64,000 nt of DNA from Candidatus Puniceispirillum sp. (GTDB taxonomy: Bacteria > Pseudomonadota > Alphaproteobacteria > Puniceispirillales > Puniceispirillaceae): positions 1-64,000 of the forward strand of contig JAOEUK010000003.1 in the NCBI GenBank assembly GCA_028382965.1. Direction: 5' to 3'. The position numbers and the translations under genes were made by a program. The stretch's first letter is position 1. Each line of letters begins with the position of its first letter. Below the pieces are notes generated by a model. That model was given only the letters and a program-made list of their open reading frames with translations, was not told the origin of the DNA and ran no database searches. This document shows, piece after piece, positions 28,866 through 41,416 of this stretch.

Positions 28866-29525
28866 TTAAAATAAGGATGGTCTCAACAGTAGTATGGATT
28901 GCGCAGTAGCAATAAATACCAACATTAAAAAAATTCCAAAAAATTTGCGCTTAATGGAAATACTACCATCCACCGAACGCACCGTGACATCATCGGCATT
29001 GCCAGTTACCATTGCACTGGTCAAATTGCGTTTATGTTTGTATTTATAGAACACGATAGCGCTAAAATGTAAAAAGACGACGAATAATAAAAAGTTTTCT
29101 CCAATACGATGCGAAGACGATGCTGCATCAGTCCCATTTGGAACCAGGTGTGCAAGCGGCCCTTCAAACAAAACATCGTCATTCGACATAGTACCGCTAA
29201 TTGCCATAAAAAGAGGAATACCAAGCAAAGCTAGCGTAGCATAACCACCAATCGCGCTGTGACCAGCTTTTGTTTTCGGCTTTGGTTTCAATATTGTTTT
29301 TAGCTCCTGAAACGCAATTGGTGGCAAAGTAAGAAATTGACGAAACTGCGCATAGTGCCCCCCCAGAAACCCCCAGAAAATTCGAAATGTTATAAGCCCA
29401 AGAATAGTCAACCCAAAACGCTCATGAAGCCACATAACGTCAGCTTTAACAGAAACAATTGCGCCAACAATACTAATGAACAAACTCCAATGAAAAAGGC
29501 GCAACGGAAAATCCCATACTCGCAT
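28866..29525 (-). CDS. Cytochrome b561-type membrane protein
   Basis: A 219-residue protein of the bacterial cytochrome b561 / Ni-hydrogenase b-subunit family, with four main transmembrane helices. It starts 'MRVWDFPLRLFHWSLF', whose His13 is a usual haem ligand. Further candidate ligands are His34 in 'WLHERFG' and the His in 'FVVFLHFSAIVFYKYK' in the last core helix. A fifth hydrophobic stretch lies at the C-terminus. Such proteins pass electrons between quinol and a c-type cytochrome in the inner membrane. Its likely partner, the cytochrome c' next door, is a pseudogene, so this cytochrome b may now serve another acceptor or be on the way out. Confidence 0.88.
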   Translation of the reverse strand: MRVWDFPLRLFHWSLFISIVGAIVSVKADVMWLHERFGLTILGLITFRIFWGFLGGHYAQFRQFLTLPPIAFQELKTILKPKPKTKAGHSAIGGYATLALLGIPLFMAISGTMSNDDVLFEGPLAHLVPNGTDAASSSHRIGENFLLFVVFLHFSAIVFYKYKHKRNLTSAMVTGNADDVTVRSVDGSISIKRKFFGIFLMLVFIATAQSILLLRPSLF

Positions 29526-29702: not shown

Positions 29703-30347
29703 ATGTCAGTTATGCAAAAAAAAATTTTGGAGAAAGGCGCCGCGCTTGACCAGCTCGCAGCAATCGATCCCGACATAGCTGCTGCCCTGACCCGATTTGG
29801 CCCACCTCCAGACCGATCCTTGCCAGCAAGCTTTGAAACTCTTGCACGGTCAATCCTTGGACAACAAATTTCGCGCGCAGCAGCAAGTGCGATCTGGGCT
29901 CGCATGCATGATCAAAATTGCAGCAAAGCATCCGTGATCGCGATGAAATTGCCGGATGATATCATCCCCTTGGGCCTTTCGCGGCGCAAAGCCGAATATA
30001 TGATCGGAATTGCTATTGAGATTGAATCTGGTACTTTAAATCTGGCGGATCTTGAAACCATGACTGGCAATGATGTTCAAAAACGCCTTATTGAAATTCG
30101 GGGTATTGGCACATGGACAGCCGATAATTTTCGCCTTTTCGCCCTTGGAGATATGGATGCTTGGCCAGCCAAGGATTTAGCACTGCAAGAAGGAATGAGA
30201 CGGCTAAAAGGCCTCAAAGAACGCCCAAGCGGTATAGAACTTTGCGCGCTTGGTGATGCTTGGCGGCCATTTCGCGGCGCGGGTGCACTTATGCTTTGGC
30301 ATATTTATGGAATTCTTGTCCGTAAAGCGACAATTGACAAAATCTAG
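29703..30347 (+). CDS. DNA-3-methyladenine glycosylase II (AlkA-type)
   Basis: A 214-residue HhH-GPD base-excision glycosylase. It lacks the N-terminal extra domain of E. coli AlkA, as many bacterial members do. Motifs: 'ARSILGQQISRAAASAIW' (48-65), the helix-hairpin-helix 'IEIRGIGTWTADNF' (130-143), and the catalytic Asp158 in 'DAWPAKDLAL'. It removes alkylated purines from DNA. The ATG at 29703 has no strong ribosome binding site. It is convergent with a dead SRAP gene, and their stop codons overlap (30344-30347). Confidence 0.92.
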   Translation: MSVMQKKILEKGAALDQLAAIDPDIAAALTRFGPPPDRSLPASFETLARSILGQQISRAAASAIWARMHDQNCSKASVIAMKLPDDIIPLGLSRRKAEYMIGIAIEIESGTLNLADLETMTGNDVQKRLIEIRGIGTWTADNFRLFALGDMDAWPAKDLALQEGMRRLKGLKERPSGIELCALGDAWRPFRGAGALMLWHIYGILVRKATIDKI

Positions 30348-31012
30348 CCAAAAAGATCACCTTGATCAGTTAATACTAACTCTACCGCCTCGCCTTCCGA
30401 TGGAGTGACCAATCTTGGATTATCAACCCCAACCTTGCCCACCTCTGACGACACACGGTAACAGTTAAACCATTTTGCAGGTGCAATCTTGCATAAAGTG
30501 CTAGCCTTATCAACAGATCAATCAAGCCAAATCGTTTCATCTCCAACGCTCAACACAAGCGGTTAACGGTAATGTATTTCCGCCAGTTCTCCATCGGCAG
30601 CACTGGTCATAATCATAAATCGTGATCGACCTTCAAGGCAAAATAGCAATCCGCCCATCGCCATTACACCACCATTAAAAAACTGAATATACCATGGCGT
30701 TTTCGGAGCGGACCATTCATAGCAGCCACTTGCCACAATAATACAGCGTGAATAGGCAAAGACATCACGGAAGGTTGATTTTTCATATACTGTTTCCACA
30801 CGCGCATTAATTAAAACAGTTTTGAGTCCACCGGCTGGTGGAAGTCCCCATAGGGCATTAGTAGCTTCAGCATGCAAACCATTTCGGACAATTACTGTGG
30901 CATTCTGGCTTGGGGCAACATTTCACCGTGGAGACAAATTCTGCGTGACTGCAACACCAAACCGGCTCATCAATTCTTCAGGGGTCGCAGTGCTGGTAAA
31001 GCGTCCACACAT
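30344..31012 (-). pseudogene. SRAP (HMCES/YedK family) pseudogene with three in-frame stops
   Basis: From an ATG at 31010-31012 the frame reads MCGRFTSTATPEELM, the invariant SRAP start in which Cys2 forms the crosslink to abasic sites. It continues at exact codon phase for 223 codons to a TAG at 30344-30346, ending 'LVLTDQGDLFG'. Recognisable family parts are 'NVAPSQNATVIV', 'NALWGLPP', 'IINARVET'-like 'LINARVETVYEK', 'CIIVASGCYEW' and 'GDETIWLD'. Three stops interrupt it: TGA at codon 30 (30923-30925), TAA at codon 150 (30563-30565) and TGA at codon 165 (30518-30520). No indel is needed anywhere. A functional copy would protect abasic sites in single-stranded DNA. Codons 50-149 remain open as a 104-residue frame. 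Confidence 0.88.
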
Positions 31013-31197: not shown

Positions 31198-32178
31198 ATG
31201 ACCGAAATTATTCCCATTTCAGATGCCAGCATTGCCAGTGCGGTAACGCGCCTGAAAGCGGGCAGGCTTGTGGCGTTTCCAACCGAGACAGTTTATGGTC
31301 TCGGGGCTGATGCCACAAATGCTTCGGCGGTGGCGTGTATTTTTGCAGCAAAACAGCGGCCTGAATTTAACCCAATTATCAGCCATGTGGCATCGCGCGC
31401 CGCAGCCTTTGAATTTGGCAAGGAAACCCAAGTTGCAGCGGCATTGGCTGACGCGTTTTGGCCCGGCCCTTTAACCCTCATTCTACACCGCACAAATCTA
31501 TGCCCTGTGGCGATGCTGGCCACCGCTGGACTTGATAAAATTGGTCTTCGAGTTCCAGCTCATGACGGTGCACAGATGCTTCTGCGGGCATTTGGCAGAC
31601 CAGTGGCAGCCCCAAGTGCAAATCCATCAGGCAAAATCAGCCCCAGCACCGCCTATCATGTTTTACATGGCCTTGGTGAGAATGTGGAGTTTGTTTTAGA
31701 TGGTGGGCCAAGTAAAAACGGCCTTGAATCTACCATTATTGACTGCACTGGGCCTAAGGCTTGCCTTTTACGACCAGGCAGCATCACTCGCGAAGCAATC
31801 ACAACAGCCCTGAAAGAAGCAGGTCTTGATCCATCAATAACCATTGCCAAACCACTTGATGATCAAGCTAATCCTATCGCGCCAGGCCAATTAAAAAGCC
31901 ATTATGCGCCCCGAGCAAAGATGCGCTTGGCAGCTAAAACCAAACAACCAGGTGAAGAACTGATAGGGTTTGGTGCCATCCTTGGTGCAGGAAAGCTTGA
32001 GCTAAACCTAAGCCCATCAAGCAATTTGATCGAGGCCGCCGCTAACCTGTATTCAATGTTACACGCCGCCGATGCAACCGGTACGGAGGAAATTGCCATT
32101 GCCAAAATTCCCAATACTAGCCTTGGTGAAGCCATTAATGATCGGTTGCGCCGTGCAGCTGCCCCGCGCTCCATCTAA
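31198..32178 (+). CDS. tsaC: L-threonylcarbamoyladenylate synthase, long Sua5 type
   Basis: Forms threonylcarbamoyl-AMP from Thr, bicarbonate and ATP, for the t6A37 modification of ANN-decoding tRNAs. The 326-residue length shows the Sua5 form: a YrdC domain (about 5-200) plus a C-terminal Sua5 domain (about 220-320). Motifs: 'AFPTETVYGLGADA' (26-39), 'APSANPSGKISP' in the substrate pocket around 139-150, and 'SHYAPR' in the linker loop that closes the site. The upstream base run AAAGGGGGGGTTTGGG is an unusual G-rich ribosome-binding region. Confidence 0.94.
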   Translation: MTEIIPISDASIASAVTRLKAGRLVAFPTETVYGLGADATNASAVACIFAAKQRPEFNPIISHVASRAAAFEFGKETQVAAALADAFWPGPLTLILHRTNLCPVAMLATAGLDKIGLRVPAHDGAQMLLRAFGRPVAAPSANPSGKISPSTAYHVLHGLGENVEFVLDGGPSKNGLESTIIDCTGPKACLLRPGSITREAITTALKEAGLDPSITIAKPLDDQANPIAPGQLKSHYAPRAKMRLAAKTKQPGEELIGFGAILGAGKLELNLSPSSNLIEAAANLYSMLHAADATGTEEIAIAKIPNTSLGEAINDRLRRAAAPRSI

Positions 32179-39561: not shown

Positions 39562-39954
39562 TTATGACGGGACTGTTGACCGAGCATACTTGCCATTTTG
39601 AAAATATAAGACTTCAGTGACTTTACCATCGAGGTTTTCATATTTCTTTACTACTTGTCTCTGACCATTTCTTGATTTTGTTTCCATTCGCAGAAATCCA
39701 GTTTGAAACATTTTAGAAGTTCCATGTATTTTACCATTAAACCACTCGGACTCATGTTTAATTCGTCCATCTTTGTCATAATTCAGTGACTTTCCATGCT
39801 GAAGTCCATTTTTAAAGTTTACAAAGCCATTAAGGACTCCATCATCATAGTGGTTCACCACCGTTCCAGTAAAGGGAATCGAATCTCCCATAATGAATTT
39901 CAATCCATCAATTGCAACTATTTTCTTTCCAGTTATTTTATCAGTTTTAATCAT
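39562..39954 (-). CDS. MORN-like repeat protein
   Basis: A 130-residue protein with MORN_2/YwqK-type repeats. Units such as 'DDGVLNGFVNFKNGLQHG', 'DKDGRIKHESEWFNGKIHG' and 'NLDGKVTEVLYFQNGK' show the repeated aromatic, N-G-K/Q-x-x-G pattern of beta-hairpin repeats. There is no signal peptide. Relatives are found as antitoxin-like or surface-associated proteins, but function is unknown. Its ATG overlaps the stop of the serine recombinase gene (ATGA, 39951-39954), so it is translationally coupled to it. It lies inside the accessory island. Confidence 0.7.
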   Translation of the reverse strand: MIKTDKITGKKIVAIDGLKFIMGDSIPFTGTVVNHYDDGVLNGFVNFKNGLQHGKSLNYDKDGRIKHESEWFNGKIHGTSKMFQTGFLRMETKSRNGQRQVVKKYENLDGKVTEVLYFQNGKYARSTVPS

Positions 39955-40475
39955 GCGTCATCCTCAAATACAAAGTAGTCACTCCATCTAAATATCTCAG
40001 ACAGAGCACCATACCAACCACCGTTTCTAACCTTGTTTAGTTTCCCTAATCTGGTTCTCTCGGCACGAATGGCATTGTCATATTCTGCAAATCCATCAAG
40101 CAGACTCTTGAATAGATTGTCTGTTGGATTGTTGAGGTCGTATTGCCCATCTTTGGTGTAGAGAATTACACCATTCGTCTTAATTGCGTTTTTTATAACG
40201 AATTGCGTTTGGTCGTTTCGTGACAAACGGTCATTGTTATAGACGAACAGATGTTTGATTGTTCCGTTGTGGATTTCTAAAAGAAGTTCTGCAATTTTGG
40301 GTCTGTTTGTATGATTCTCGTGATGTAAAGAAGCAGCACCTTCATTCCAAATCTGGTATTTCATACCCAATTCTTTAGATTTATTGATACCTAATTCTTT
40401 TTGGGTTTCTAGACTCGTTCCCTCTTCTTGAACGGCACTACTCACACGAGTATAGATGTGAAGAATCTTTTTCAT
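39951..40475 (-). CDS. Serine recombinase (resolvase/invertase), catalytic domain only
   Basis: A 174-residue protein made almost only of the resolvase catalytic domain. It starts 'MKKILHIYTRVSSAVQEEG', with the nucleophilic Ser in 'RVSS' (12 or 13) and the conserved Arg in 'YNNDRLSRNDQ' near residues 79-89. The helix E region 'FAEYDNAIRAERTRLGK' is also present. After 'NGGWYG', where larger family members continue into a recombinase and zinc-ribbon domain, it ends within about 20 unrelated residues. It is therefore a truncated or rearranged large serine recombinase with no obvious DNA-binding domain. It may be inactive, or act with a partner. Coupled to the MORN-like gene. Confidence 0.82.
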   Translation of the reverse strand: MKKILHIYTRVSSAVQEEGTSLETQKELGINKSKELGMKYQIWNEGAASLHHENHTNRPKIAELLLEIHNGTIKHLFVYNNDRLSRNDQTQFVIKNAIKTNGVILYTKDGQYDLNNPTDNLFKSLLDGFAEYDNAIRAERTRLGKLNKVRNGGWYGALSEIFRWSDYFVFEDDA

Positions 40476-40651
40476 ACTATTATCTTACCACCGAACAAAT
40501 TCAAACGCATTGGCAAAATTGACAAGGTATCTCTATTTCATTTATAGATTGAATTCAATTGAGAGTTTGAACAGGGGGTATGGATGTTGGTTTGCAGCAT
40601 TCCAACTAACCGAAATTTCTAATAAAATAGACCGGAAACTTGGAGTTATTG

Positions 40652-41416
40652 ATGGAAAAATTTCTTGGGGAATTGACTATCGGTTCAGACGGTATTTGCG
40701 GAGATGTAAATGATTACGGTGAACAAGAAGAGGGAAAAAATCTTCGTCAATCCATAGCAAGCATAGTCTATAGTGACTATCTAGACGAAATACGCACGCA
40801 TCACAGCATAGCAGTGATGGACCGAGAAATTGAGAAATTTCTGAGTCAAATACCTAATGGTGGAGTAGTGCTAGATATTGGCGGATGTTGGGGTTGGCAC
40901 TGGAGAAAAACTAATATTCAACGACCTGACATTACAGTGGTTATTGTAGATTTAGTTCGTGAAAACCTCTTGCATGCGAAAGAAGTCTTGAAAGAACAGG
41001 TAACAAACAAAAAGGTTTTTCTGGTGCATGGTAATGCCTGTTCTTTAGAATTTGAGGACAAAACCTTTGATGGTGTTTGGAGTGTGCAAACAACCCAACA
41101 TATTCCTGATTTTAGTAGTTCGTGTGCAGAGATATACCGAGTTTTAAAAAAGAAAGGAATTTACTGGGATTATGGGTTGAATAACGCGACCCTAATCCGT
41201 CTTGTATATAAATTATTTCGGAAAACCTATCATTTGGATGGTGTGATTGATGGTAGATTCTTTCTACGACGAATGAACGACAGTGTAGTTAGAATTGTTA
41301 AAGAGACTTTTCATTCGGAACCAGTGGTTGGTTACTCTGAAATATTATTTACACCAGATTTGGGATTGCCAATTGGTGGAAAAGAAAATGCATTCCTTGG
41401 AAACTTTGATTTCTAA
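40652..41416 (+). CDS. Class I SAM-dependent methyltransferase
   Basis: A 254-residue methyltransferase of the Methyltransf_11 type. Motif I is 'VVLDIGGCWGWHW' (about 70-82), with an acidic loop 'VVIVDLVRENLLHAKE' after it, a post-II motif 'HGNACSLEFEDKTFDGVWSV', and 'EIYRVLKKKGIYW' for motif III. The G-G-C-W-G-W-H form of motif I is unusual. The C-terminal part carries Phe/Arg-rich helices that would bind the acceptor. I start at the ATG at 40652 because GGAGTT is 4-5 bases upstream; a TTG four codons earlier is less likely. It is the only plus-strand gene in the island. The acceptor is unknown. Confidence 0.78.
   Translation: MEKFLGELTIGSDGICGDVNDYGEQEEGKNLRQSIASIVYSDYLDEIRTHHSIAVMDREIEKFLSQIPNGGVVLDIGGCWGWHWRKTNIQRPDITVVIVDLVRENLLHAKEVLKEQVTNKKVFLVHGNACSLEFEDKTFDGVWSVQTTQHIPDFSSSCAEIYRVLKKKGIYWDYGLNNATLIRLVYKLFRKTYHLDGVIDGRFFLRRMNDSVVRIVKETFHSEPVVGYSEILFTPDLGLPIGGKENAFLGNFDF

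Follow-up and report, generated by a model that had tools for sequence, protein, structure and literature searches.

A broken single-copy SRAP gene in a Candidatus Puniceispirillum genome, best read as a young pseudogene

Results and Discussion

An SRAP frame interrupted by three stops

The window, a stretch of 64,000 nucleotides from a Candidatus Puniceispirillum sp. with a G+C content of 43.4%, carries on its minus strand an SRAP gene (PF02586) that is best read as a young, lineage-specific pseudogene, the outcome of ordinary gene decay that calls for no new mechanism. With a probability of roughly 0.93, point mutations disabled this single-copy gene at some stage on the branch that leads to its bacterium, and it has since been drifting under little or no constraint. 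The frame is complete, with 222 codons and a stop, running from the ATG of an N-terminal MCGRF at 31012 to a C-terminal DLFG followed by TAG at 30344. When the internal stops are read through, it matches positions 1-214 of the 214 of the PF02586 profile with 155.4 bits (E 2e-45), above the gathering score of 27.1. Its alignment with 11 open relatives of 222 aa contains neither gaps nor indels, which places the SRAP match far beyond chance. The initial annotation had described a full-length gene that keeps one phase without an indel, and gave no strand; this is borne out on the minus strand, the plus-strand frame from 30344 being meaningless. The TGA, TAA and TGA that it placed at codons 30, 150 and 165 are exactly the three internal stops present, and they make a full-length SRAP domain untranslatable.

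All four active-site residues expected of an SRAP protein (C2, N69, E99 and H147) are retained, as equated by motif, and not by alignment with YedK, with the YedK residues of PMC9436759. In E. coli YedK, the abasic site is crosslinked through Cys2, with Glu105 and His160 as the catalysts of this step (PMC9436759). The window copy thus has in common with the SRAP family, which includes E. coli YedK and human HMCES, the whole profile, the MCGRF start and the active-site residues by motif, but differs in its three internal stops, with which no protein is possible under the standard code. The predicted product ends after 29 residues; it includes Cys2 but none of the conserved Asn, Glu and His, which lie further on. 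An abasic-site crosslinking protein is therefore not to be expected. Coordinates of the locus are collected in Table 1.

Table 1. Features of the SRAP locus, in positions of the window.
Feature	Position	Strand	Remark
Cytochrome b561-type gene	28866..29525	-	next neighbour past the glycosylase gene
HhH-GPD (alkA-type) DNA glycosylase gene, PF00730	29703..30347	+	open; convergent with SRAP
SRAP (PF02586) gene, best read as a pseudogene	30344..31012	-	222 codons and stop; three internal stops; no indel
Internal stop TGA, codon 165	30518..30520	-	sense codon in 11/11 genus relatives
Internal stop TAA, codon 150	30563..30565	-	sense codon in 11/11 genus relatives
Internal stop TGA, codon 30	30923..30925	-	sense codon in 11/11 genus relatives
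Catalytic Cys2 codon	31007..31009	-	retained in the sequence; role of Cys2 in YedK from PMC9436759
Sua5/YwlC-type threonylcarbamoyl-AMP synthase gene	31198..32178	+	open; upstream of SRAP, divergent

The terminal stops of the SRAP and glycosylase genes overlap in the CTAG at 30344-30347. The alkA-type neighbour named in the initial annotation is confirmed. Its closest named records (69-79% identity), among them genomes of SAR116 cluster bacterium and Candidatus Puniceispirillum, mark the genome as SAR116-type. The locus lies on a 219-kb contig (C23) of a 2.38-Mb draft genome with 39 contigs that is 99.63% complete. A profile search of this genome returned only one PF02586 match; no intact SRAP is therefore found elsewhere in it, and replacement of the gene by a paralogue was rejected.

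SRAP in the genus, family and class

SRAP is present in 11 of the 15 other genomes of the genus, or 12/16 when the window's genome is counted, and in 8/8 of the good ones, again with the window's own; completeness is 59-80% in the four genus genomes that lack a match. The 11 orthologues (L002-L012) are all open, equal in length to the window frame and alignable to it without gaps, at 55-66% amino-acid identity, and the stops are confined to the window copy (0/11 in the others). The glycosylase and Sua5-type genes flank SRAP in all 11 loci, the glycosylase of L011 being partial at a contig end, and in the open reading frames listed for the genus loci, L011 excepted, a gene of the cytochrome b561 type can be made out by eye. 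In the family, PF02586 is matched in 46 of 61 genomes and in 28/28 of the good ones. No stop interrupts the matched stretch in 44 of these 46 copies, a count that covers this stretch and would overlook frameshifts outside it; the exceptions are the window's genome and that of G035, a member of another genus. The class sample has SRAP in 236/387 genomes (230/378 of the good ones); many Alphaproteobacteria thus lack it. The earlier statement that SRAP proteins are usually kept thus holds well in the family and only moderately in the class sample.

Selection on the window branch and its sister

Selection was analysed on a tree of 12 loci built from three genes (GTR+G), using codon models in which each chosen branch received its own omega; likelihood ratios and p-values, Fisher values excepted, were computed by hand from the likelihoods. 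In SRAP, the window branch has an omega of 0.41 against 0.142 elsewhere (lnL -3864.90 vs -3869.77, ratio 9.7). The same branch shows no significant rise in the two flanking genes, with 0.097 vs 0.117 in alkA (ratio 0.3) and 0.161 vs 0.141 in ywlC (ratio 0.1). SRAP omega is also not raised when L011 (0.145 vs 0.164) or L010 (0.076 vs 0.170) is taken as foreground. Fits that took L012 as foreground with L001 masked, or that took L002 as foreground, were left unused, as the foreground branch came out near zero.

The sister and closest relative of this copy, L012 (G003:C2), has an open SRAP frame despite a raised dN/dS of its own (omega 0.308, ratio 3.8). When L012 is given its own omega, the window branch stands at 0.344, the sister at 0.237 and the rest at 0.132 (lnL -3863.31), and the window value against one equal to the background, in a model with only L012 separate, gives a ratio of 9.1. 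A single omega of 0.288 for window and sister together fits as well (lnL -3863.55). The corresponding three-omega fits bring little gain in alkA (window 0.089, sister 0.163, rest 0.112) and in ywlC (0.195, 0.102 and 0.145). With the sister masked, the SRAP window omega falls to 0.254 vs 0.138 and the ratio to 2.7. SRAP selection is thus relaxed relative to functional copies and to the neighbouring genes, not significantly so with the sister masked. Since dN/dS is likewise raised in the sister lineage, the weakening of SRAP constraint may be older than the loss: constraint appears to have slackened in both lineages, the stops being found in the window lineage only, and we read part of the relaxation as older than, or independent of, the stops. 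This shared slackening makes dN/dS alone a weaker basis for dating the loss. An omega of 1 over the whole window branch is disfavoured, with a slightly worse lnL of -3866.89 (ratio 4.0 in one fit and 6.3 in another), which indicates constraint over some of its length. With branches as long as these, at about 1-2 neutral substitutions per codon, omega and branch length trade off.

Amino-acid columns that are otherwise invariant were also compared. In SRAP, the window copy departs at 17 of the 108 columns that do not vary among its 11 relatives, two of the departures being stops, the sister L012 at 9/100 and the outgroup L002 at 16/107, almost as often as the window copy but on a much longer branch. 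The corresponding departures of window and L012 are 5/122 and 8/125 in alkA, and 9/166 and 12/170 in ywlC. In combining stops and relaxed dN/dS in one lineage with constrained neighbours, the window SRAP is like ordinary bacterial pseudogenes; it is unlike them in having decayed by substitutions alone, with no frameshift, deletion or insertion in the gene.

Stops without indels

Taking the omega before the loss as 0.132-0.237 and the window branch as 1.24 neutral substitutions per codon, we estimated by hand that the period after the loss makes up about 14-24% of the branch, or about 39-67 substitutions. Since 3.6-4.8% of substitutions make stops, about 1.4-3.2 stops are predicted, and three are seen. 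In the spacers of relatives, 25 indels stand against 295 substitutions, with values from 0 to 0.195 in individual pairs; this ratio is rough and post hoc and comes from 8 overlapping, non-independent pairs. It predicts about 3-6 indels in SRAP, and the chance of seeing none would be about 0.003-0.04 under these rough assumptions. Zero indels therefore fits neutral decay somewhat poorly. With such wide errors, and in a case picked for lacking indels, this is a mild misfit only and not evidence for a kept frame. The view of the initial annotation that decay by substitutions alone is less common is weakly supported by this estimate, under which a few indels would have been expected.

Alternative explanations

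Sequencing or assembly error, by which SRAP would be intact and its stops artefactual, is very unlikely. The genome is a draft of 39 contigs, but the locus sits on a long contig whose genes are ordered as in the relatives, and error would have to account for three separate stop-making substitutions together with excess changes at otherwise invariant columns. The dN/dS is raised in SRAP and not significantly in its neighbours, and errors striking bases at random should not cluster in one gene.

Translation of a full-length protein through the stops, with TGA read as selenocysteine or tryptophan and TAA suppressed, is rated as extremely unlikely. The frame is kept across 222 codons without indels, and the genome has a tRNA-Sec gene (64.6 bits vs a gathering score of 47; tRNA-SeC tca in ARAGORN), so TGA as selenocysteine merited a test. 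This gene is located at L044:1498-1592. However, the 46-nt segments that begin at the two TGAs have folding energies of -1.6 and -7.6 kcal/mol, in both cases less stable than the mean of their shuffles, and by this folding against shuffles no stable SECIS-like hairpin follows either TGA. Cys occupies the TGA columns in 0/11 genus relatives, the TAA would require a different suppressor, and the frame carries missense changes at invariant columns. Selenocysteine at the TGAs was accordingly rejected, the tRNA-Sec notwithstanding. A genome-wide alternative code was rejected as well: RF2 is present (512.7 bits vs a cut-off of 370), and of the 46 ORFs in the window that reach 150 aa, counted after overlaps were dropped, TGA terminates 8 and TAA 27, in agreement with the earlier judgement that recoding is unlikely. 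That the frame is still held by a low-level full-length protein, made through several suppressed stops where SRAP constraint had already slackened, is hardly credible.

It is likewise highly improbable that a useful fragment is still made, be it codons 31-149 as a whole or a product restarted inside them. The 119 codons between the first two stops are open and hold N69, E99 and H147, and the departures of the window copy at invariant columns gather past codon 149 (10/31 vs 7/77, Fisher p 0.006), a lean that would speak for retention of the N-terminal part. However, the outgroup L002 leans in the same direction (8/29 vs 8/78, p 0.035), and L012 does so more weakly (4/25 vs 5/75, p 0.22). The fragment would be without Cys2, and an SRAP protein without Cys2 forms no crosslink (PMC9436759). 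Finally, the window-branch omega is alike in codons 1-149 (0.417) and 150-222 (0.416), and with relaxation equal on both sides of codon 149 no protected fragment is seen. Inactivation by point mutations followed by drift remains the preferred reading.

Repair function and the consequence of the probable loss

The gene, of the YedK/HMCES type, was in all likelihood struck by disabling point mutations in a SAR116-type lineage, partway along the branch to the window's bacterium, and its sequence has drifted since. Its loss may have been tolerated since ordinary base-excision repair, through the adjoining glycosylase and PF03372 nucleases, could handle abasic sites. Elsewhere than at the SRAP locus, the genome has two PF03372 genes, both open and over the cut-off, which belong to a family that includes exonuclease III among other enzymes. 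With these two genes and an open, full-length glycosylase gene, base-excision repair is presumably available, judging from the sequence. Losing SRAP may change the repair strategy, as the initial annotation proposed, although many Alphaproteobacteria are without an SRAP match. A gene matched in all 28 good family genomes has thus probably been lost in one lineage, with a sister in which its constraint has slackened and another genus with a separate broken copy. Whether an abasic-site shield is dispensable in these marine bacteria is a testable, if modest, question.

One type of SOS box has the form GTTCN7GTTC. Exact boxes of this form occur, among 53 loci, only at the Bacillus-type loci L029 and L031-L034 and at none of the SAR116-type loci, and SOS control of SRAP by such a box was rejected.

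Other broken copies and a possible island

The SRAP copy of G035 (L040, about 1380-2030, G035:C34) contains an internal TAG and a frame change near codons 4-5, the latter read by eye from three frames, and is thus a case of mixed decay. It is flanked by the same neighbours as the window SRAP. The six genomes of its genus in which SRAP is also matched (G034, G036, G037, G038, G040 and G041) show no stop, and those without a match, G033, G039 and G042, are 80, 64 and 73% complete, respectively. If both assemblies are right, the broken copies in the window and in G035 mean at least two separate disruptions of SRAP within the family. In the class, among the matches listed, an SRAP match with one TAA inside is found at G423:C2:16539-17171, in a genome that has two SRAP matches.

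Elsewhere in the window, the segment 39951-42671 holds a recombinase-like ORF (39951-40475) and a methyltransferase-like ORF (40640-41416), both recognised by eye, and otherwise small ORFs only. This segment is possibly a small mobile island.
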